This document shows positions 22,747-42,910 of a stretch of DNA of 42,910 bases, one piece after another. The translations under genes were made by a program, and so were the position numbers. The DNA is from a virus, in the IMG/VR virus record IMGVR_UViG_3300002104_000077, positions 1 through 42,910 of that record; one strand, 5' to 3'. A model generated the notes under the pieces. It searched no databases and was not told the DNA's origin. It was given only the letters and a program-made list of their open reading frames with translations. Position 1 is the stretch's first letter; each line of letters opens with the position of its first letter.

Positions 22747-23787
22747 TCACCCTCTCCTAGTAGAAACGCAGGAATCAGCGGAAGCGCCCGACGCAGATGG
22801 CGCGCGGTCATCTTGTAGAAGTGCAGGAGCGGCCACTTTTGCGCCGTGCGCAGAGGCGAAACCACACGCATCCAGCCGCGAATGCCAGCGCTCCAACGCC
22901 TCGCGCCGACGCTCCATGGCATCCCGAGTCAGGTAAGTTTCGGCGGTAGTGCCCAGACTGTGATTGATCAGCAGCTCGCCCACCAGGTGATCGACACCAA
23001 TGTCGGCAAGGCTGCTGCGCATAAGTTTGCGCAAGTCATGGCTAGTCCAGCCGCGACCACTCACCTGACGCATCAGGGCATGCGCGCTGGTATCGGCCAG
23101 CCTGGCGCCGGCACGCACCGGGAACAGCCATTCAGACTTCAGTCGAGGATCGGGCAGCGCCTGGCGGTAACGCTCCAGCAGGGCCAGCACCTGAGGCGTC
23201 AGTGGCAACACATGCTGGCGCCGAGACTTGGTGTTGGCCTCGGGGATCACCCACACCCGATCATCAAGGGACACATGCGCCCAGCGCGCCAGCAAGGTCT
23301 CTGCGATACGCGTGCCATGAGCCAACATCATCAGCGGCAGCATGCCTTTGAGCGGATCAGCGTTGAACGCCTCCACCAGCTGCGGCACCAGCACCGGCAG
23401 ATCGACACGAGACAGCGCCGCCGGCTTGGGCCGCAACTTGCCCTTATAGAAGCTCTTGAAGGTTGCGCCGGCCATCGGGTTGCCTGCAATCCGGCCCTGC
23501 TCCTCGGCCATGGCGAACGCCTGGCGCATACCCTGCAGCGCCTTCTGCACGGTACGCGGCGCCAGCTCCTGGTGCATCGGCCACACCAGCTGGTCGTCCA
23601 GTGTCACCCGGTCGAGTTTCTTGATGGTCACCTTGCCCAAGCGCGGCAGCACATGCCGGCGCATCAGCGAGCCCATGCTCCCGCGATACTTGGCCGACCG
23701 GGCGCGGTCACCCTCAATCCGGCCAAGCCACCACAGCACCACATCGCCTGTGGTGCGCATCGGTGCCTTCGCCTTGGCAACACTCAT
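22747..23787 (-). CDS. Second tyrosine recombinase, embedded in the replication operon
   Basis: A 346-aa protein with an N-terminal SAM-like DNA-binding domain and a full tyrosine recombinase catalytic set: R160 (HGTRIAE), K188 (TKSRRQHVLPL), H250-x-x-R253 (SHDLRK), H276 (NHSLGTT) and Tyr285 (AETYLTR). The C-terminal tail is Ala/Ser-rich. It is transcribed with the replication genes and not with the integrase at the right end. The role could be genome-dimer resolution, circularisation or an alternative integration activity. The start at 23787 is fixed by the ATGA overlap with a preceding 34-aa ORF. Confidence 0.87.
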   Translation of the reverse strand: MSVAKAKAPMRTTGDVVLWWLGRIEGDRARSAKYRGSMGSLMRRHVLPRLGKVTIKKLDRVTLDDQLVWPMHQELAPRTVQKALQGMRQAFAMAEEQGRIAGNPMAGATFKSFYKGKLRPKPAALSRVDLPVLVPQLVEAFNADPLKGMLPLMMLAHGTRIAETLLARWAHVSLDDRVWVIPEANTKSRRQHVLPLTPQVLALLERYRQALPDPRLKSEWLFPVRAGARLADTSAHALMRQVSGRGWTSHDLRKLMRSSLADIGVDHLVGELLINHSLGTTAETYLTRDAMERRREALERWHSRLDACGFASAHGAKVAAPALLQDDRAPSASGASADSCVSTRRG

Positions 23788-23888
23788 GCCGCCACGCCCC
23801 GCACGTACACAAAGTAAAACCACACCACTGGCGCGCCAGGCAACGCCAGCACCGCCGCCACAGGTAAAGCCATCAGCGCCTTTTTCAT
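23784..23888 (-). CDS. 34-aa membrane micro-protein
   Basis: A 34-codon ORF ('MKKALMALPVAAVLALPGAP...') with one hydrophobic stretch rich in A, V, L, F and Y. It is joined at both ends by ATGA overlaps: its start overlaps the stop of the 28-aa ORF, and its stop overlaps the recombinase start. That coupling is the main reason to call it real. Function unknown; too short for the usual gene-finding cut-off. Confidence 0.5.
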   Translation of the reverse strand: MKKALMALPVAAVLALPGAPVVWFYFVYVRGVAA

Positions 23889-26942: not shown

Positions 26943-27155
26943 TCATGCTGCGGAGTCGCGGCGCAAGGCATGGCATAGGTCAATAGCTTTGAACGCCCCG
27001 GAAGTCTCAGACTCGGCGCGCAACGCAACAACCGCGCTAATGCGGGAAGAGCCGGAAATCCATTGGGAGACGGCGGATTGAGTAACCCCAAGGGCCTTGG
27101 CGGTTTTTACCTGGCCTCCGAAATGGTCAATAAGCTGCTGAATTAGGGCGGTCAT
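26943..27155 (-). CDS. cro: Cro-like repressor
   Basis: A 70-aa protein made mostly of one helix-turn-helix ('LIDHFGGQVKTAKALGVTQSAVSQWISGSSRI'), very similar in layout to YdaS/Cro-type phage repressors. It is divergent from the cI gene with three operator sites between them. The ATG at 27155 is preferred to an upstream TTG. It should bind the same operators as CI with a different order of preference and favour lytic growth. Confidence 0.87.
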   Translation of the reverse strand: MTALIQQLIDHFGGQVKTAKALGVTQSAVSQWISGSSRISAVVALRAESETSGAFKAIDLCHALRRDSAA

Positions 27156-27169
27156 GATAGCTACCAATG

Positions 27170-27231
27170 ATAAGCGTGCTTATACAGTATGCGAGAAGAA
27201 GCCTTATTTGCAACAGGATAAGCGCGCTAAT
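27170..27231. promoter_or_regulatory. OR-type operator triplet between cro and cI, with pR and pRM
   Basis: Three 14-bp pseudo-palindromes: ATAAGCGTGCTTAT (27170-27183), a weaker AGAAGAAGCCTTAT (27194-27207), and ATAAGCGCGCTAAT (27218-27231). Their centres are exactly 24 bp apart, close to lambda OR spacing. A minus-strand promoter for cro can be drawn from TTGCAA (27213-27208) and CATACT (27190-27185), 17 bp apart. A plus-strand promoter for cI would use the same TTGCAA, which is self-complementary, with a weak TACGCT at 27231-27236. The outer sites match the pL operators at 29.87-29.91 kb. Confidence 0.8.
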
Positions 27232-27243
27232 ACGCTCACCCGC

Positions 27244-27915
27244 ATGGACTTATCGGAACGAATAAAGGCCGCACGCGCGCACGCGGGCCTGACACAGCGC
27301 CAGCTCGCCGAAGCTGCCAAAGTAGAGCAACCCCTTATCTCGCAGCTTGAGAACAGGAAAACTCTTAAGACTGCGCACGTCGCGCAAATAGCAAAAGCTT
27401 GTCGGGTGAGTGCTATTTGGCTGTCCAGCGGCGAGGGCGAGATGCTTCAAGGCAAGGCGCCCGACCCGGCACCAGGAGCCCCAAGCGAAAAGGATTACGC
27501 CTTGATTCCGCAGTACACGGCGAAAGGATCAGCCGGTAACGGCCACCTAAATGAGCACGTTGAGGTTAAGGGCGGGCTCGCATTCAAGCGCGACTGGCTT
27601 GCGCGTCTTGGCGTCAAGGAGCAGCGCTGCAGCGTCATCTATGCCCAAGGCTCCAGCATGGAGCCCAGCATCGGGGATGGCGAGGTGGTGCTACTCGACC
27701 ATGACGCCACCGAGCCGCGCGACGGCAAGGTATACGTGCTCCAGCGCGCCGATGGCGAAATCATCATCAAGCGCCTGATCAAGCAGATGAGCGGGTGGGT
27801 CATTCGCTCCGACAACGAAGACAAACGCCGCTACCCAGACGAACCCATCAGCGCAGACAACCTACAGCACGTCGAGGTGGTGGGGCGCGTGGTTTGGCGC
27901 GGCGGCGGGATGTAA
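27244..27915 (+). CDS. cI: CI-type lysogeny repressor (HTH + S24 LexA-like peptidase)
   Basis: A 223-aa repressor. Residues about 1-60 form an XRE helix-turn-helix ('GLTQRQLAEAAKVEQPLISQLENRK'). A linker contains the Ala97-Gly98 autocleavage site ('KGSAGNG'). The C-terminal S24 domain has the Ser-Lys dyad: Ser138 in 'GSSMEPSIGDG' and Lys176 in 'GEIIIKRLIK'. RecA-stimulated self-cleavage would induce the prophage upon DNA damage. The ATG at 27244 has no Shine-Dalgarno sequence and lies very close to the presumed pRM start, so the message may be leaderless like lambda cI. The frame extends upstream only through the operators. Confidence 0.92.
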   Translation: MDLSERIKAARAHAGLTQRQLAEAAKVEQPLISQLENRKTLKTAHVAQIAKACRVSAIWLSSGEGEMLQGKAPDPAPGAPSEKDYALIPQYTAKGSAGNGHLNEHVEVKGGLAFKRDWLARLGVKEQRCSVIYAQGSSMEPSIGDGEVVLLDHDATEPRDGKVYVLQRADGEIIIKRLIKQMSGWVIRSDNEDKRRYPDEPISADNLQHVEVVGRVVWRGGGM

Positions 27916-31229: not shown

Positions 31230-31296
31230 CCGGCCCCTTTCACTGATGCACCTGGGTAGCCGGGTGCATTGGGAAATCAACCGGAGGAACAGCCCT

Positions 31297-32163
31297 ATGA
31301 AACAAGCCCTACTCGCAATTCCCCTGTGCCTGGCCATGTCCGGCGCATTCGCGGCACCCACTGACCTGGCCATCTGCACCGGCGGCCAAGGCGGCTTCTA
31401 CGAAGCCTTGGGTACCGACATCGGCCGCTCGGTGAACAAGGCCACCAACGTCAAGGTTGAAGTCCTGAACACCGGTGGCAGCGTCGAGAACGCCGCACTG
31501 ATGAAAGACGGCGACTGCGCCCTGGCCATCATCCAGGCCGACGCCGTTACCAGCCAGCCGCTGCCACCTGACTTGAAGGTCGTGGACGCCCACACCGAGG
31601 TGGTCTACTGGATCTTCGGCAAGTCCGGCGTCGACAACTTCAACGAGATGGAAAACGACTCGGTGGCCAAGAAGTACGCCTTTGCCACGGTCGCCGGCTC
31701 GGGCGCTGAGGTGACCCTGAAAAACTGGATCGACACCGACGACGACTACAAAGGAGCGGTGCCGGTTGAGTTTGACGACTGGTACCAGGCCGCTGAAGCC
31801 GTGTCGCAGGGCTTCGTGATGAAGGCCGGCGTCAAGGTCGAGATCGCCGGCATGCTGTACATCAGCCGCCCCGGCAAGATCAGCACCGACATCACCGAGG
31901 ACTTCGGCCCCAGCCTGACCATCGGCCAGGTCGAAGACAGTTCCTTTCAGAGCAGCAAGGACGCCAACGGCAACCCGCTGTACGTCCAATGCGAAATCGA
32001 CGGCAAACAAACGGGTGGCCTGGCCACCAGCACGATCAGTGACTCTGACACCTACTGCCTGAAAGCCCAGGTCGTTTACAACAACGACTGGCACCAGGGC
32101 GACCGCAAGATTCGCCGTGCGATCGACAAGAGCATCAACGGCGTAGTGAAGGCGGTTCGCTGA
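31297..32163 (+). CDS. Secreted TAXI-type (TRAP) solute-binding protein
   Basis: A 288-aa protein with a clear signal peptide (basic start, hydrophobic core, cleavage after about A-F-A at residue 19). The mature part begins with the TAXI-family pattern 'LAICTGGQGGFYEALGTDIGRSVNK', 'VEVLNTGGSVENAALMKDGDCALAIIQADA', and continues as a two-lobed periplasmic binding protein. TAXI proteins normally deliver small solutes to TRAP transporter membrane subunits, which are not encoded here. GGAGG precedes the ATG at 31297. In a phage early operon it may alter the host envelope, for example by ligand sequestration or superinfection exclusion; this is speculative. Confidence 0.8.
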   Translation: MKQALLAIPLCLAMSGAFAAPTDLAICTGGQGGFYEALGTDIGRSVNKATNVKVEVLNTGGSVENAALMKDGDCALAIIQADAVTSQPLPPDLKVVDAHTEVVYWIFGKSGVDNFNEMENDSVAKKYAFATVAGSGAEVTLKNWIDTDDDYKGAVPVEFDDWYQAAEAVSQGFVMKAGVKVEIAGMLYISRPGKISTDITEDFGPSLTIGQVEDSSFQSSKDANGNPLYVQCEIDGKQTGGLATSTISDSDTYCLKAQVVYNNDWHQGDRKIRRAIDKSINGVVKAVR

Positions 32164-36237: not shown

Positions 36238-36849
36238 ATGAAGCCTGAAATGATCACCCTGAAAGCCGGCCAGGCCACTATCAAGATGCCGGCCACCGCG
36301 CTGGCGCAGCTTGCGCTGGCCAGCGTTTTCGGCCAGTTGGTGCCGCAGCAATCGGCACCAGCACTTCCTGCCGGCGCTGTTCCTGCGCTTGGCGCTTACT
36401 GGCCTGGCCAGGGCGGCGTGAATGCCGGCCTTATGCGCGGCCTCGACGGGGCACGCGATTACTACCTGATCGTGCCGACCGGTGATGACGCCGAGTTCGA
36501 AGAGCTGAAGTACGGCCCGCGCGACTTCGAAGTGCCTGGCGCCGACAGCGCCTGGGATGGCCTGGCCAACACCAAGGCCCTGCTCGCCTCTGGCAAGTCG
36601 CACCCAGCGGCCGAGGCCTGCAATGGCTTCACCCGTGACGGCCACAGCGACTTCTACCTGCCGGCCCGTCGTGAGCTGCAGACGGCCGAGGCGGTGTGCC
36701 CTGAGGTGTTCAGCAAGGGCTGGCACTGGAGCAGCACGCAGCGCTCCGCCGACACCGCATTCGGCGTGCACTTCGGTGATGGCGGTCAGAACAACCTCGT
36801 CAAGCACTACGAGCTCCGTGTCCGTCCCGTCCGCAGATTGTTCATTTAA
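36238..36849 (+). CDS. DGR target protein 1 (C-type-lectin/DUF1566-like fold)
   Basis: A 203-aa protein. An N-terminal helical part (about 10-45) is followed by a DUF1566/formylglycine-enzyme-like C-type-lectin domain: 'DYYLIVPTGDDAEFEELKYGPRD', 'GHSDFYLPARRELQTAEA', 'KGWHWSSTQRSADTAF', ending 'YELRVRPVRRLFI'. The last part (residues about 167-199) is variable repeat 1. Eleven codons there differ from the template repeat, all by changes at template adenines. There is no signal peptide. It is 92 bases from target 2, separated by a hairpin and a terminator. The ligand and location of the protein are unknown. Confidence 0.9.
   Translation: MKPEMITLKAGQATIKMPATALAQLALASVFGQLVPQQSAPALPAGAVPALGAYWPGQGGVNAGLMRGLDGARDYYLIVPTGDDAEFEELKYGPRDFEVPGADSAWDGLANTKALLASGKSHPAAEACNGFTRDGHSDFYLPARRELQTAEAVCPEVFSKGWHWSSTQRSADTAFGVHFGDGGQNNLVKHYELRVRPVRRLFI
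36737..36836 (+). repeat. DGR variable repeat VR1
   Basis: A 100-nt repeat matching the template at 38138-38237 with 14 differences, every one at a template A (A to G, C or T). The last 26 bases (from GAGCTCCGTG to CCGCAG) are identical in all three copies and form the likely initiation of mutagenic homing (IMH) segment. Confidence 0.95.
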
Positions 36850-36867
36850 TCATTCGTTAATTCATTC

Positions 36868-36883
36868 CTGGCCGACAGGCCAG
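36868..36883 (+). other. DGR target-recognition hairpin after VR1
   Basis: A perfect 6-bp stem CTGGCC/GGCCAG with a GACA tetraloop, 31 bases after the end of VR1. Hairpins or cruciforms with GRNA-type tetraloops downstream of the VR are known target-recognition elements in the Bordetella phage DGR; this one fits that description. Confidence 0.7.
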
Positions 36884-36895
36884 CAGTAACTCAGG

Positions 36896-36915
36896 GGCGC
36901 ATCAGCGCCTTTTTT
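36896..36915 (+). terminator. Intrinsic terminator between the DGR target genes
   Basis: Stem GGCGC/GCGCC with ATCA loop and T6 on the plus strand. It suggests that target 1 is expressed more than the genes downstream, or that target 2 has separate expression. Confidence 0.8.
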
Positions 36916-36940
36916 GTTGCCTTCAGAAAGAGGAAGCACC

Positions 36941-37558
36941 ATGCAATCAGTAGCCCTGGCAGCACCAGCATTCACCCTCCCTGAAATCGGCCAAGCCTAC
37001 GGCGGCGGCTTCTTCTCCGGGATCACCGTTCAGGACGGCAAGCGCTACATGCTCATCACCGCAGGCCGCGAGCATGAGCTTGAAGGCGAATGGGGCGAGT
37101 ACGGCACGAAGATCGAAGGCGCCGACAGCTTCACCGATGGCCGCGCCAACACCGAGGCCATGGCCGCCGCTGGCAGCGAGCTGGCCCAGCAGGTTCTGGC
37201 GCTGAGCATCGGCGGCCACAGCGACTGGGCGATCCCGGCGCGCGACCAGCAGGAGCTGCAGTACCGCAACCTCAAGCCCACCGCGCGGGAGAACTACTGC
37301 TGCGGCCGTGACGGTGACAACCCGAACAGCCTGCCGATCGGCCTGCTCTACACGCCTGAGTCACCAACCAAGACCACGGTCGGTGCCTTCCGCGAGGGCG
37401 GCAGCGAGGCCTTCCAGCCAGCCTGGTACTGGTCGAGTTCGCGGCGCTCCGCCTACGACGCATTCTTCATGTACTTCGTTGATGGCTGTCAGGACAACCT
37501 CGGCAAGGACATCGAGCTCCGTGTCCGTCCCGTCCGCAGCGAGTTGATCATTGATTAA
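36941..37558 (+). CDS. DGR target protein 2 (C-type-lectin/DUF1566-like fold)
   Basis: A 205-aa protein related in layout to target 1: 'KRYMLITAGREHELEGEWGEYG', 'GHSDWAIPARDQQELQYRNL', 'PAWYWSSSRRSAYDAFFMYF', ending 'IELRVRPVRSELIID'. VR2 covers residues about 167-199, the same residue numbers as in target 1, with twelve altered codons. The region between (about 115-155) is longer and carries Cys-Cys and Pro-rich loops not found in target 1. There is no signal peptide. The ATG at 36941 has an AAGAGGAA site. Confidence 0.9.
   Translation: MQSVALAAPAFTLPEIGQAYGGGFFSGITVQDGKRYMLITAGREHELEGEWGEYGTKIEGADSFTDGRANTEAMAAAGSELAQQVLALSIGGHSDWAIPARDQQELQYRNLKPTARENYCCGRDGDNPNSLPIGLLYTPESPTKTTVGAFREGGSEAFQPAWYWSSSRRSAYDAFFMYFVDGCQDNLGKDIELRVRPVRSELIID
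37440..37539 (+). repeat. DGR variable repeat VR2
   Basis: A 100-nt repeat aligned without gaps to the template at 38138-38237. It has 15 differences, all at template adenines. The 3' 26 bases are identical to VR1 and the template. Confidence 0.95.
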
Positions 37559-37570
37559 TTTGTTCATTCA

Positions 37571-37597
37571 GCCGGCCGCTTGCGGCCGGTGCTTTTG
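37571..37597 (+). terminator. Strong hairpin after VR2 (target-recognition hairpin and/or terminator)
   Basis: An 8-bp perfect stem CCGGCCGC/GCGGCCGG, extended by a G-T pair, with a minimal loop, followed by TTTT. It starts 31 bases after VR2, the same distance as the hairpin after VR1, so it is probably the cognate DGR hairpin. The T-run also allows terminator function. Confidence 0.7.
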
Positions 37598-37611
37598 GGG
37601 AACCTTGCCGA

Positions 37612-37965
37612 ATGGCTATGCACACGGATCTGCCGATACACAAAGCCGCCTTTGACCTGCTGAGCATGGCCACTGACATAACGCGGAACATCCCGCGCGA
37701 CTTTAAGGCTGGGCTCGGCGCCAAGGTCAGGGACGAGTGCATCGAGGTGATGGTGCTGATCGCCCGAGCAAACGCAGCAAAGGACAAGCGCCAGCACCTG
37801 GGCGAGCTGGTTGAGCGTATCCAGGTGGTTGAGTTCCTGCTGCGGCTGTTCAAAGAGAAGCGCTTCATCAGCATTCCGCAGCACGCCGCGGCGATCCTCG
37901 TCACGGCATCCATCGGCAAGCAGGCCAACGCCTGGAAGAAGTCCGCAACCGCGCCCGCCACCTGA
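37612..37965 (+). CDS. avd: DGR accessory protein Avd (four-helix bundle)
   Basis: A 117-aa, strongly helical basic protein ('HKAAFDLLSMATDITRNIPRDFKAGLGAKVRDECIEVMVLIARANAAKDK', 'LVERIQVVEFLLRLFKEKRFIS', 'ASIGKQANAWKKSA'). Length, composition and place between target gene and template repeat match Avd, which forms a positively charged pentamer that binds the reverse transcriptase and the template RNA and is needed for mutagenic cDNA synthesis. GGGGAA lies nine bases before the ATG. Confidence 0.88.
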   Translation: MAMHTDLPIHKAAFDLLSMATDITRNIPRDFKAGLGAKVRDECIEVMVLIARANAAKDKRQHLGELVERIQVVEFLLRLFKEKRFISIPQHAAAILVTASIGKQANAWKKSATAPAT

Positions 37966-38137
37966 AGGTCACGGCCTTCACGTCTGTGCGATTTGAATCT
38001 GGTCGTGCCGCTGGCCCCTGGGTCACCGCCATGCGCATCAGAGATACCGCCGGTCTAAAGCGTCCGCGTAGGTCTCGCGCAGTTTCCTTGCTGATCGGCA
38101 CTGCCTTCGGCTTGGCGACGTAGATAGCACGATAGGT

Positions 38138-38237
38138 CGCAGCGCTCCGCCAACAACGCATTCAACATGAACTTCGATGATGGCAATCAGAACAACAACG
38201 ACAAGAACAACGAGCTCCGTGTCCGTCCCGTCCGCAG
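38138..38237 (+). repeat. DGR template repeat (TR)
   Basis: A 100-nt template between Avd and the reverse transcriptase. It holds 31 A, arranged largely as AAC/AAT codons in the frame of the VRs, so adenine mutagenesis can give many residues but not stop codons at these positions. It is the parent of VR1 and VR2 (14 and 15 changes, only at A). It lacks the downstream hairpin found after each VR, as expected for a template. The template RNA probably also includes the spacer from 37966. Confidence 0.95.
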
Positions 38238-39337
38238 ATTCGACTGTTGCACCTTACCCGTTCTGCGATTTGGTCCAGGCCTACTACGATTGCCGGCGCT
38301 CCAAGCGCAACAGCGCCAGCGCGCTGGCCTTCGAGGCGGACCTAGAGCGGAACCTTGTTCAGCTACACGACGACCTGCTCGCCGGCACCTACCGGCCTGG
38401 CCGCTCGATCTGCTTTGTGGTTACCCGACCCAAGGCGCGGGAGGTGTGGGCGGCGGCCTTTCGGGATCGCGTTGTCCACCACCTGCTATACAACCATGTG
38501 GCCCCGCGCTTCTACGCCAGCTTCATAGCGGACAGCTGCGCGTGCATCCCGGGGCGCGGCACGCTGTACGCCGCCGAGCGACTTGAGGCCAAGATACGCA
38601 GCGCCAGCCAGAACTGGGCGCAGCCTCTGTTCTATCTCAAGCTGGACCTGGCCAACTTCTTCGTGGCAATCGATAAGCAGGTGCTGCGCCAGCAGCTGGC
38701 CAAGCGCATCACCGAGCCTTGGTGGCTGGCCCTGGCCACGCATATCCTGATGCACGACCCACGCAGCGACTATGAAATCCGCAGCCCGCGCCACCTGTTC
38801 AACCTGGTGCCGCAGCACAAGCGCCTCACCGCGCAGCCTGCGCACCTGGGGCTGCCCATTGGCAACCTGTCGTCGCAGTTCTTCGCCAACGTCTATCTGG
38901 ACGGCCTGGACCAGTTCGTAAAGCACCGTCTGCGCTGCAAGCACTACGTGCGCTACGTCGACGACTTCGTGCTGCTGCATGAGTCGCCCCAGCAGCTGAA
39001 CGCCTGGCGTGAACAGATCGAGCAGCACCTGGCCACGCTGGGTGCCCGGCTCAACCCGAGCAAGACCATCCTGCAGCCAGTGGCCCGCGGCGTCGACTTC
39101 GTGGGCCACGTCATCAAGCCCTGGCGGCGTACCACCCGGAAGCGATCAGTTGCCCAGGCGCTGACCCGCACCGCTACAGCGCCAGCAGCTGACCTGCGTG
39201 AAACCGCCAACAGCTACTTCGGCCTGCTCAGCCAGGCCAGTCACAGCGAGAAAGACCGCGCCAAGCTGGCGCGCCTGATCCTCAAGCGGGGCCACAGCGT
39301 CAACGCGGGCCTGACCAAGACCTATCCAAACCGATAA
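38177..39337 (+). CDS. DGR reverse transcriptase
   Basis: A reverse transcriptase of the DGR clade, up to 386 aa. Motifs (numbered from 38177): N-terminal 'YRPGRSICFVVTRPKAREVWAAAFRDRVVHHLL', 'SCACIPGRGT', catalytic Asp158 in 'LKLDLANFF', the DGR-typical 'GLPIGNLSSQ' (225-234), the active site Y260-V-D-D, and 'LNPSKT' plus 'FVGHVIKP'. With Avd it copies the template RNA with adenine-directed errors. No ATG lies between the template and the first conserved helix: the only ATGs (38177, 38180) are inside the template, with a GTG at 38219 (also in the template) and a TTG at 38270. The true start is therefore uncertain. Confidence 0.93.
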   Translation: MMAIRTTTTRTTSSVSVPSADSTVAPYPFCDLVQAYYDCRRSKRNSASALAFEADLERNLVQLHDDLLAGTYRPGRSICFVVTRPKAREVWAAAFRDRVVHHLLYNHVAPRFYASFIADSCACIPGRGTLYAAERLEAKIRSASQNWAQPLFYLKLDLANFFVAIDKQVLRQQLAKRITEPWWLALATHILMHDPRSDYEIRSPRHLFNLVPQHKRLTAQPAHLGLPIGNLSSQFFANVYLDGLDQFVKHRLRCKHYVRYVDDFVLLHESPQQLNAWREQIEQHLATLGARLNPSKTILQPVARGVDFVGHVIKPWRRTTRKRSVAQALTRTATAPAADLRETANSYFGLLSQASHSEKDRAKLARLILKRGHSVNAGLTKTYPNR

Positions 39338-41559: not shown

Positions 41560-41894
41560 GCGCAGCAGAGCAGCTCCAGCAGTTGGGGCATGACAAGGTG
41601 CTTGAGGCTCGCATGGCCGAGATCATCGGCACCACAACAAAAGCCCTACAGCGCAAGCGAGAGCGAGGGGTGATCCCGCGCGGTGTGTGGGATGTACTCG
41701 ATGGGCGCGTCACCTACAGCATACGGAGATACGACGAATGGGCAGAAAGTCAGTGGCACTCCCCGAAGGCGTCGAAGTCGTCGGCAACGCCGTCCGCATC
41801 CGCTTCACCTGGAAGCATCGTCGCTGCGAAACCCTTGCTGTTTCGCCGACCGCCTCGGGCATCAGCCAGGCCGCAAGTCTTAGAACTCAGGTAA
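41556..41894 (+). CDS. xis: Excisionase-like protein, overlapping the integrase
   Basis: A 112-aa protein. The first 68 residues carry the pattern of phage excisionases ('VLEARMAEIIGTTTKALQRKRERGVIPRGVWDVLDGRVTYSIRRYDEWAESQW'), a winged-helix DNA-binding unit that directs the integrase to excision. The last 45 residues are Ser/Ala/Pro-rich, lie inside the integrase gene in another frame and do not look like a folded domain. It overlaps the preceding gene as ATGA and the integrase by 157 bases. Confidence 0.75.
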   Translation: MSAAEQLQQLGHDKVLEARMAEIIGTTTKALQRKRERGVIPRGVWDVLDGRVTYSIRRYDEWAESQWHSPKASKSSATPSASASPGSIVAAKPLLFRRPPRASARPQVLELR

Positions 41895-42910
41895 AGCAGC
41901 TGATCAAGCTCGGCGTCATGACAGATGACAAGTACGCCGAGCTGTTCCCCAGCTCAAGCTATGCCCTCTCCCGCCTCACGCCATCCTTCGGAGAGTTCGC
42001 GCAAATCTGGCTGAACAGCCGGGACATCGTTGATTCAACCCGAGCGAACTATAAAAGCACCCTGAACCTGTACTGGATGATCCACTTCGCCACGCGCCGG
42101 ATTGATGAAATCAGCTCGGCTGATGTGCGCAAGGTCGTGGCAGAGACTCCCTGGTCATCGCCAGGGGTGCGCCGCAACGCCTGCGACAAGCTGTCGGCAG
42201 TGTTCAAGGCCGCGGTGATGGACGCAGTTATTGCGCGTAATCCGGTGGCGTCAATCCAGCGGCCACGGGTGGCAAAGAAGGTGGTTGACCCGTTCACCCG
42301 AGAAGAGGCAGAGCAGATCATTGCGCACCTGTACGACAAGCTGTCGGGCCTGACGCGGATCTACGCCTGCTACTTTGAGTTCGCATTCTTTACCGGCATG
42401 CGGCCGGGCGAGCTGATGGGGTTGCGCTGGGAAGAGGTGGACTTTAACGCGAGAAGCGCACACGTCTGCCGGGTGGTGGTCGACGGCGTTATTCATGACC
42501 GCGTGAAGACCAAGAACAACCGGCACGTGCTGCTGAATGACAGGGCGCTGCATGCCCTTAAGGAAGCGAAGGTGCTGACCATGGCCAGAAGCGGGTTCGT
42601 TTTCGCGCCGGCCATCCTGGCCGATGGGGCTGACTGGATTCACACGGACACCACGCCGCGCAAGTATTTCAACCTGGCCTTGCGGGCGCTTGGCATCCGC
42701 ATTCGCAGGCAGTACGACGCCCGCCACACCTACGCCACGATGTGCCTGATGGCCGGCATGAACCCAGCATTTATTGCCAACCAGTTAGGCCACAGTGTAC
42801 AAATGCTCCTTTCCACCTATGCGCGGTGGCTCAATTCAACATCGGACTGGACTGAGCTGCAGAAGCTGGAAAACAGGCCAAATGGTACGAAATTGGCACA
42901 GGCCGAATAG
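41738..42910 (+). CDS. int: Phage integrase (tyrosine recombinase, DUF3596-type N-terminus)
   Basis: A 390-aa integrase. Residues about 1-70 form a DUF3596-like arm-binding domain ('VEVVGNAVRIRFTWKHRRCETLAVSPT'). A core-binding SAM-like domain (about 80-175) and the catalytic domain follow, with R222 (FFTGMRPGEL), K259 (VKTKNNRHVLL), R329 (QYDARHTYAT), H352 (LGHSVQ) and the nucleophile Tyr361 (LSTYARW). The first box-B residue is Tyr rather than His, common in this group. The ATG at 41738 has GGAG nine bases upstream. It is the last gene of the window; the attachment site should lie just beyond. Confidence 0.93.
   Translation: MGRKSVALPEGVEVVGNAVRIRFTWKHRRCETLAVSPTASGISQAASLRTQVKQLIKLGVMTDDKYAELFPSSSYALSRLTPSFGEFAQIWLNSRDIVDSTRANYKSTLNLYWMIHFATRRIDEISSADVRKVVAETPWSSPGVRRNACDKLSAVFKAAVMDAVIARNPVASIQRPRVAKKVVDPFTREEAEQIIAHLYDKLSGLTRIYACYFEFAFFTGMRPGELMGLRWEEVDFNARSAHVCRVVVDGVIHDRVKTKNNRHVLLNDRALHALKEAKVLTMARSGFVFAPAILADGADWIHTDTTPRKYFNLALRALGIRIRRQYDARHTYATMCLMAGMNPAFIANQLGHSVQMLLSTYARWLNSTSDWTELQKLENRPNGTKLAQAE

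Follow-up and report, generated by a model that had tools for sequence, protein, structure and literature searches.

What kind of diversity-generating retroelement (DGR) does this phage carry, how is its template RNA organized, and what does it diversify? The window, i.e., the whole 42,910-nt stretch of viral DNA analyzed here, holds a system of a known kind whose template RNA is laid out opposite to that of Bordetella phage BPP-1. We consider it very likely that this is a complete and probably active DGR of a temperate Pseudomonas-type phage, with a structured RNA (Rfam RT-15) 5′ of the template repeat and a closing helix connecting the two. A preliminary description had proposed a full, probably active DGR with two targets at 36238–39337: this extent runs exactly from the start of target gene 1 to the stop of the reverse transcriptase (RT), and the reading is supported by adenine-only variable regions, RT, and Avd, with activity of this copy suggested by its relatives.

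One template and two variable regions

The protein-coding and repeat elements of the cassette are as follows:

36238..36849, + strand: target gene 1, 203 aa, Lcl_C/DUF1566-like C-terminal domain (Pfam Lcl_C 1.3e-6, below gathering; phrog_4245 5e-31)
36737–36839, + strand: VR1, variable region of target gene 1 (14/32 template A changed, 0 non-A)
36941..37558, + strand: target gene 2, 205 aa, Lcl_C/DUF1566-like (Pfam Lcl_C 2.5e-5; phrog_4245 1.5e-35)
37439–37539, + strand: VR2, variable region of target gene 2 (15/31 template A changed, 0 non-A)
37612..37965, + strand: avd (accessory variability determinant), 117 aa (PF22296 bAvd 1.3e-14; phrog_3206 “Avd protein of DGR” 1.1e-32)
38138–38240, + strand: TR, template repeat, 103 nt, gapless alignment
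38177..39337, + strand: RT open reading frame (ORF), 386 aa (PF00078 RVT_1 6e-17; phrog_1423 7e-117; motifs GLPIGNLSSQ and YVDD)

The TR carries 32 A among its 103 positions, and gapless realignment returned the 14 (VR1) and 15 (VR2) differences reported before, all at template A. The chance of every difference falling on A is ~8e-8 for VR1 and ~2e-8 for VR2. The three copies, previously given as 100 nt each, are indeed gapless but have the extents listed above, with the match of VR2 to the TR stopping at 38237; the start of target gene 2 was corrected to 36941. Changed A occupied codon positions 1–2 in 29 of the 30 cases counted, mostly in AAY codons, the count taking in A38238, immediately beyond the VR2 core as bounded here. 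Where the preliminary description had 12 altered sites in codons common to both VRs, we count 10 codons and 11 single sites. Lcl_C paralogs are common in these phages, and ordinary recombination among them, without reverse transcription, could be invoked for the differences between the repeats. This is contradicted because the differences are A-only, i.e., recombination would not leave C, G, and T untouched, and the repeats are accompanied by RT, Avd, and a structured template RNA: we give this origin practically no weight.

Both the Avd and the RT motifs noted earlier are present, although the match of Avd to NCBIfam NF033474 (2e-13) is below the cut-off of that model. ATG 38177, the sole RT start codon that is conserved, falls within the TR, and the conserved part of the RT sequence begins immediately 3′ of the TR. 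An anti-phage defense role was considered and rejected: the targets and Avd had no PADLOC match, and the RT matched generic RT models only.

In the mechanism we propose, RT-15 and then the TR would be transcribed together, the TR would be copied by RT and Avd with template adenines misread, and the mutated cDNA would replace VR1 or VR2 (VR3 in relatives). A single template could thereby rewrite two small Lcl_C-like binding proteins independently, at 11–13 codons apiece.

Distribution and recent activity across relatives

Many beta- and gamma-proteobacteria have related cassettes in their phages and genomes. Two targets on one template, as first described for this phage, is the rule in the family and no peculiarity of the window: two tandem targets are the norm, and a third one, 3–10 kb upstream and usually near cI, is present in 17 of 40 relatives. 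Across 81 IMG/VR loci, template-A sites were changed in 2199 of 5028 cases vs 34 of 11645 for other sites, such that 98% of all VR changes were at A; the corresponding counts for 55 bacterial-genome loci were 1382/3259 and 21/7418. Within two near-identical pairs (L021/L022 and L026/L029), each VR displayed 13–19 A-site differences with flanks unchanged. These relatives have been recently active, because they diverge almost wholly at VR adenines, the pattern anticipated by the preliminary description. No second isolate of exactly this phage was found, and by extension from its relatives the window copy is probably active as well.

Decayed states also occur in the family: the TR of one locus (L004) has lost about one third of its adenines and is nearly equal to VR1, Medea1 retains two targets with avd and RT absent, and orf68 of phage D3 has an apparent frameshift in its VR. 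The window cassette could likewise be a relic that once diversified both VRs and is now inactive. We regard this as improbable, as all window ORFs are open, the RT motifs are intact, the TR retains its 32 A, neither VR shows any non-A drift, and close relatives are active.

A structured RNA 5′ of the template

The preliminary inventory of TR, VRs, RT, and Avd stands, but it had overlooked the structured part of the template RNA:

37949..38139, + strand: Rfam RT-15 RNA (RF03018), 5′ structured domain of the DGR template RNA (178.1 bits, 2e-45; gathering 82)
37995..38001, + strand: closing helix, 5′ strand GAAUCUG, conserved and unpaired in the Rfam RT-15 consensus
38235..38241, + strand: closing helix, 3′ strand CAGAUUC at the TR 3′ end, pairing with GAAUCUG

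The match covers the full RF03018 model. In Rfam, this RNA is named for the neighboring RT and carries no DGR label, and both the TR and the closing helix fall outside the model; a literature search, which missed several key DGR papers, found no report tying RT-15 to DGRs. RT-15, so far named only by its adjacent RT, thus gains a function. Its 3′ boundary falls no more than 3 nt from the TR start, both in the window and in the five distant phages LPPA56, phPA-G, Haboob, QDWS, and Magia, and this placement of the structured RNA ahead of the TR is kept in >100 relatives.

Across 128 loci, 96.7% of the cells of the closing helix were paired, vs 11–56% at slid registers; its strands were not located by motif search in 13 of 141 loci. 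When distinct combinations were considered, 227 of 252 cells were paired, while the maximum over 5000 swaps was 217. Pairs 4–6 show some mismatches, mostly A.C, and pair 7 was GC in 23 combinations, AU in 5, UA in 5, CG in 2, and GU in 1, with 0 mispairs. Base pairing between RT-15 and the TR is shown by this covariation, including the occurrence of pair 7 as all four Watson–Crick types. One could argue that the complementarity is incidental and kept since CAGATTC, which sits within the RT ORF when read from ATG 38177, also encodes Ala-Asp-Ser of the RT. However, the RT-15 strand is non-coding and yet covaries, with pair 7 matched in 36/36 combinations, and the observed pairing was reached by 0 of the 5000 swaps, making a coincidence of this kind very improbable.

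A helix of 7–9 bp links a conserved single-stranded segment of RT-15 to the TR 3′ end; it would hold the start point of cDNA synthesis against the 5′ domain and may position or prime this synthesis. We also considered whether a 3′ RNA element overlaps the beginning of the RT coding sequence, and rejected this for lack of a clear drop in synonymous variation after the TR; strong codon constraint was likewise not seen there in the RT gene, and a weak overlapping element may exist.

Comparison with known systems

The start of DGR cDNA synthesis has been worked out mainly on BPP-1 (mtd-avd-TR-brt), in which the structured RNA lies 3′ of the template. BPP-1 and the window share an RT, an Avd, one TR, adenine-directed mutation, a VR at the 3′ end of the target gene, and the order target-avd-TR-RT. 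They differ in the structured RNA, which is Rfam Phage_DGR 3′ of the TR in BPP-1 and RT-15 5′ of the TR in the window, and in spacing: the avd–TR gap is 0 in BPP-1 and 172 nt in the window, while the 144-nt TR–brt spacer of BPP-1, which contains Phage_DGR, has no counterpart here. Phage_DGR (RF03022) had no match in the window, where the RT ORF opens within the TR, and the BPP-1 positive control scored 105 bits. Non-A differences between TR and VR occur near the 3′ end in BPP-1 (4/22), whereas the last 26 nt of TR and VR are identical in 169 of 178 pairs of the window family. Finally, BPP-1 has one target, in the tail region, and the window family two or three.

Close parallels are found in Pseudomonas phages Cruim01, phPA-G, Haboob, and LPPA56, Burkholderia phage Magia, and Shewanella phage QDWS. 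These six have two VRs (three in Cruim01), RT-15 adjoining the TR on its 5′ side, and an RT adjoining or overlapping the TR on its 3′ side; the window is a further member, identical in layout and different in sequence. Retrons also use a short closing helix (msr-msd, a1/a2 pairing), which links a structured RNA domain on the 5′ side to a template on the 3′ side. The window arrangement appears to resemble this organization by analogy, but differs through TR/VR mutagenic homing, Avd, and a DGR-type RT, the latter scoring 49 bits against the one retron model compared (Retron_St85, cut-off 235).

A conserved class with a 5′ structured RNA, a mapped helix, and no 3′ spacer offers a second system for direct comparison of priming. 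RT-15 might even define a separate mechanistic DGR class, with 5′-anchored, retron-like template priming and two or three early/lysogen non-virion proteins as targets, the helix bringing the 3′ end of the TR to the RT-15 domain, which would assume the priming role of the BPP-1 3′ spacer. We see this broader reading as rather unlikely.

Sequences 3′ of the variable regions

BPP-1-type target sites carry a GC-rich hairpin with a GRNA loop 3′ of the VR (PMC3240598). The corresponding window elements are:

36838..36877, + strand: A/T-rich tract adjoining the VR1 3′ end, 65% AT (genome 38% AT)
36868..36883, + strand: 6-bp stem 3′ of VR1, loop GACA, in line with the GRNA rule (PMC3240598); not conserved in the family
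37541..37580, + strand: A/T-rich tract adjoining the VR2 3′ end, 57.5% AT
37572..37589, + strand: 7-bp GC-rich stem 3′ of VR2, loop CTTG; most relatives retain the stem, with a non-GRNA loop

As few as 0.14% of 40-nt windows are as AT-rich as the tract next to VR1, and an A/T-rich tract was found 3′ of every VR in the family. GRNA hairpins were poorly conserved (4/78 for VR1, 15/80 for VR2, 0/21 for VR3), and a BPP-1-like hairpin was rejected as a universal target mark.

Target proteins and their possible roles

The targets are free-standing Lcl_C-like proteins with the VR at their C-terminus. Target 1 has homologs in ~46 loci, of which 38/46 match Lcl_C at E ≤ 1e-3, and target 2 has 68 homologs. 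The “lectin-fold” label applied earlier holds insofar as the Lcl_C/DUF1566 match goes, yet that match is below the Pfam cut-off and was not accompanied by a PDB fold match: Foldseek against the PDB returned nothing for either target, and its matches elsewhere were limited to viral DUF1566 models and orf68 of phage D3. Single targets searched against the PDB by sequence alone also had no match, while a profile search gave a marginal match (0.0027) to the C-terminal domain of Legionella Lcl, 8q4e (PMC11162425). AlphaFold models were poor in the VR, the loop having pLDDT <50. The targets would bind a variable ligand, and two contrasting roles can be proposed.

First, they may be virion adhesins assembled on the tail and varying host recognition, like Mtd in BPP-1, a role to which we assign slightly less than an even chance. 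The Lcl_C/DUF1566 domain belongs to adhesins, as in Lcl of Legionella (PMC11162425), the same fold is also predicted at the ends of collagen-repeat and S74 tail proteins in other phages, and most phage DGR targets are tail proteins (PMC8144416). However, these proteins are just ~200 aa long with no recognized tail-attachment domain, and are encoded in the cI-to-integrase operon, i.e., the early/lysogeny region, on the strand opposite to the terminase and tail genes. A VR in the tail module was also rejected: when the TR was searched against 48 whole contigs, placed matches were the TR, VR1, VR2, and sometimes a third upstream VR, and no late-module VR was recognized, one contig (G022) having a fifth, unplaced match that could not be identified as an additional VR.

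Alternatively, the targets may be non-virion proteins of the infected or lysogenic cell binding a variable partner, e.g., a competing phage, a host surface, or a host defense protein, a role to which we give the same, slightly less than even, chance. The early/lysogeny location fits this role, as do the target pairs persisting in phages without an adjoining RT, although no localization signal or partner was identified and DUF1566 relatives of known function are extracellular adhesins (PMC11162425). Two small proteins per template, sometimes three, are the usual targets in the family, and the default reading of phage DGRs as tail-fiber diversifiers is questioned because these targets usually lie away from the tail genes.

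The position of the third target, usually 0.9–2.9 kb downstream of cI, argues in the same direction, i.e., against virion adhesins and for a role in the infected or lysogenic cell. Sharing of this slot also favors the cellular role: in the window, it is taken by an unrelated secreted-protein ORF (31297), which is preceded by the same leader as the third target of two relatives:

31238..31289, + strand: leader preceding the third DGR target in L044 and L098 (88–91% identity over 46–52 nt)

Adenine-specific diversification of two targets

As an element, this is a further DGR, with the following parts:

Features of the DGR cassette
36238–36849, plus strand: target 1
36737–36839: VR1
36838–36877: A/T-rich, ATT-rich tract after VR1
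36941–37558, plus strand: target 2
37439–37539: VR2
37541–37580: A/T-rich, ATT-rich tract after VR2
37612–37965, plus strand: avd
38138–38240: TR
38177–39337, plus strand: RT ORF

Avd matched the Pfam family bAvd (1.3e-14) and, in PHROG, the “Avd protein of DGR” (1.1e-32); the RT matched RVT_1 of Pfam as well as PHROG 1423 (7e-117). In gapless alignments to TR, all 14 differences in VR1 and all 15 in VR2 fall on template adenines, the same counts as in the preliminary description; its figure of 12 altered sites in codons changed in both VRs was slightly off, as we count 10 such codons and 11 sites common to both. In the target reading frame, TR contains runs of AAY codons, and 29 of the 30 changed adenines counted, a tally that takes in A38238 immediately beyond the VR2 core, occupy codon positions 1 or 2.

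Next, we compared the window with 80 IMG/VR loci carrying a close RT. Two VRs were present in 73 of these 81 loci, with nearly constant spacing, three within reach in five, one in two, and none in one, so that the sharing of one template by two targets, as originally proposed, extends well beyond this phage. Pooled over the 81 loci, 2199 of 5028 template-A sites were changed versus 34 of 11,645 other sites, and a set of 55 bacterial-genome loci (RT identity down to ~45%, mostly beta- and gamma-proteobacteria; two or three VRs in 50) yielded 1382/3259 versus 21/7418, the loci being related to one another and the pooled counts thus not independent events. Such patterns show that a single TR supplies two or three VRs through mutagenic, adenine-specific transfer.

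The preliminary description had predicted VR variation in relatives focused on TR adenines, and two pairs of loci bear this out. L021 and L022 have identical RT sequences (1080 nt) and 300-nt flanks, while VR1 differs at 17 A sites and one non-A site, and VR2 at 14 A sites; in the L026/L029 pair, 13 and 19 A sites distinguish the VRs, with all other VR sites equal. Judged from these sequences, the DGR has been recently active in relatives. At another IMG/VR locus (3300025621_001498; L004:5890–6000), TR has only 20 adenines versus the usual ~32 and is one base from VR1, as if a variable copy had been written over it, or else through misassembly.

A conserved helix closes the template onto RT-15

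An Rfam search identified RT-15 (RF03018, 178 bits) at 37949–38139, ending at the TR start. The two boundaries likewise coincide within 3 nt in phages LPPA56, phPA-G, Haboob, QDWS, and Magia; RT-15 is thus the RNA that flanks a DGR template on its 5′ side. Our literature search found no paper tying RT-15 to DGRs; since it did not reach key DGR papers, we do not claim priority.

RNAalifold (18 loci) paired an RT-15 segment, GAAUCUG (37995–38001), highly conserved and unpaired in Rfam’s own consensus, with CAGAUUC (38235–38241) at the TR 3′ end. Across 128 loci, 96.7% of cells in this closing helix were paired, compared to 11–56% at registers slid up to 4 nt; in the 36 combinations that are distinct, pairing holds for 227 of 252 cells, versus a maximum of 217 among 5000 partner swaps. 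The outermost of the seven pairs was GC in 23 combinations, AU in 5, UA in 5, CG in 2, and GU in 1, with 0 mispairs, and pair counts were repeated on a separate alignment. The chief blemish is mismatches, often A.C, at inner pairs 4–6. Overall, these data show that TR is closed onto the RT-15 domain by an RNA helix conserved among the loci. The helix would hold the template start beside an RT/Avd-binding RNA domain, and cDNA synthesis would begin there, primed either by RNA of the 5′ domain, as in retrons, or by target DNA.

Comparison with BPP-1

Relative to the Bordetella phage BPP-1 DGR (mtd-avd-TR-brt), our sole comparison, the 5′ RNA layout is a variant of the DGR arrangement. In BPP-1, avd and TR are separated by a gap of 0, and the 144-nt TR-brt spacer contains the Rfam Phage_DGR RNA, i.e., 3′ of TR, whereas in the window a 172-nt avd-TR gap holds RT-15 and the TR-RT spacer is absent, since the sole start codon common to all relatives (ATG 38177) falls within TR and conserved RT sequence starts 2–10 nt past it. 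Codon usage just past TR did not reveal the strong extra constraint expected from a hidden 3′ RNA element.

The last 26 nt of TR and VR are identical in 169 of 178 pairs of the window family, while those of BPP-1 differ at the 3′ end. BPP-1 also requires a GRNA-loop hairpin 3′ of VR (PMC3240598); one is present 3′ of VR1 in the window, and the family does not conserve it (4/78 VR1, 15/80 VR2, and 0/21 VR3). VR1, VR2, and VR3 are instead followed by an A/T-rich tract (63–67% A/T versus 38% for the GC-rich genome), absent 3′ of TR and found at the same position after VRs in L002–L081, which is possibly a homing mark. The target would then be marked by the common TR/VR 3′ end and this tract together.

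Target proteins

In both targets (~205 aa each), an Lcl_C/DUF1566-like domain fills nearly the whole protein, scoring below the Pfam cut-off and recurring in 38 of 46 target-1 homologues. The best solved structure in profile searches was 8q4e (E 0.0027), the C-terminal domain of a Legionella collagen-like adhesin (PMC11162425). AlphaFold models reached mean pLDDT of 79 and 73, with the variable loop <50; Foldseek matched neither to PDB. Its hits in a viral model library were to D3 orf68, to DUF1566 proteins, and to tail proteins of the collagen-repeat and S74 types, the latter at their ends. Given the sub-cut-off domain score, marginal 8q4e match, low-pLDDT loop, and empty PDB search, the lectin fold put forward earlier is likely rather than demonstrated. 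The targets may act either as virion adhesins or as cellular binding proteins.

Genomic setting and additional targets

By gene order, the window, a 42,910-base virus record of IMG/VR, belongs to a lambda-like temperate phage:

Gene order in the window
1–20 kb, minus strand: terminase gpA, minor tail/tape-measure protein, and other structural genes
After the structural genes: replication and Rha-type antirepressor genes
27154–27915, plus strand: S24/HTH repressor
Repressor to integrase, plus strand: early/lysogeny operon
41687–42910: tyrosine integrase, end of the operon

A second tyrosine-recombinase-like gene (Phage_integrase 1.7e-16) lies at 22747–23823, minus strand. The DGR cassette sits inside the early/lysogeny operon, between genes for a C5-cytosine DNA methylase and for the integrase. 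Phages and genomes of Pseudomonas hold the relatives closest to it, from which we infer a Pseudomonas host.

Of 40 relatives, 17 have a third VR that uses the same template and lies 3.3–9.5 kb upstream of TR, inside another small Lcl_C-like protein; loci with a third VR include L085, L087–L099, L108, L007, L044, L054, L072, and L082. Where a repressor gene was recognized, this target was downstream of it, at a distance of 0.9–2.9 kb with one exception, and often a little past cI. One relative contig (G022, from locus L036) gave five TR-search matches, one beyond what TR and three VRs account for. No third VR was found in the window; however, the 46–52 nt leader of the L044/L098 third target recurs at 31238–31289 (88–91% identity), ahead of a non-target ORF (31297–32163) predicted to be secreted, with an N-terminal NMT1-like match. 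A leader common to unrelated genes suggests that this slot holds exchangeable cargo.

Finally, Medea1 (L126:6002–7310) and Aurca01 (L131:3002–4310) carry target pairs without adjoining avd or RT, and thus targets may be useful on their own. D3 orf68 (L124:5857–6417) is an orphan target adjoining cI, with an apparent frameshift in its VR.
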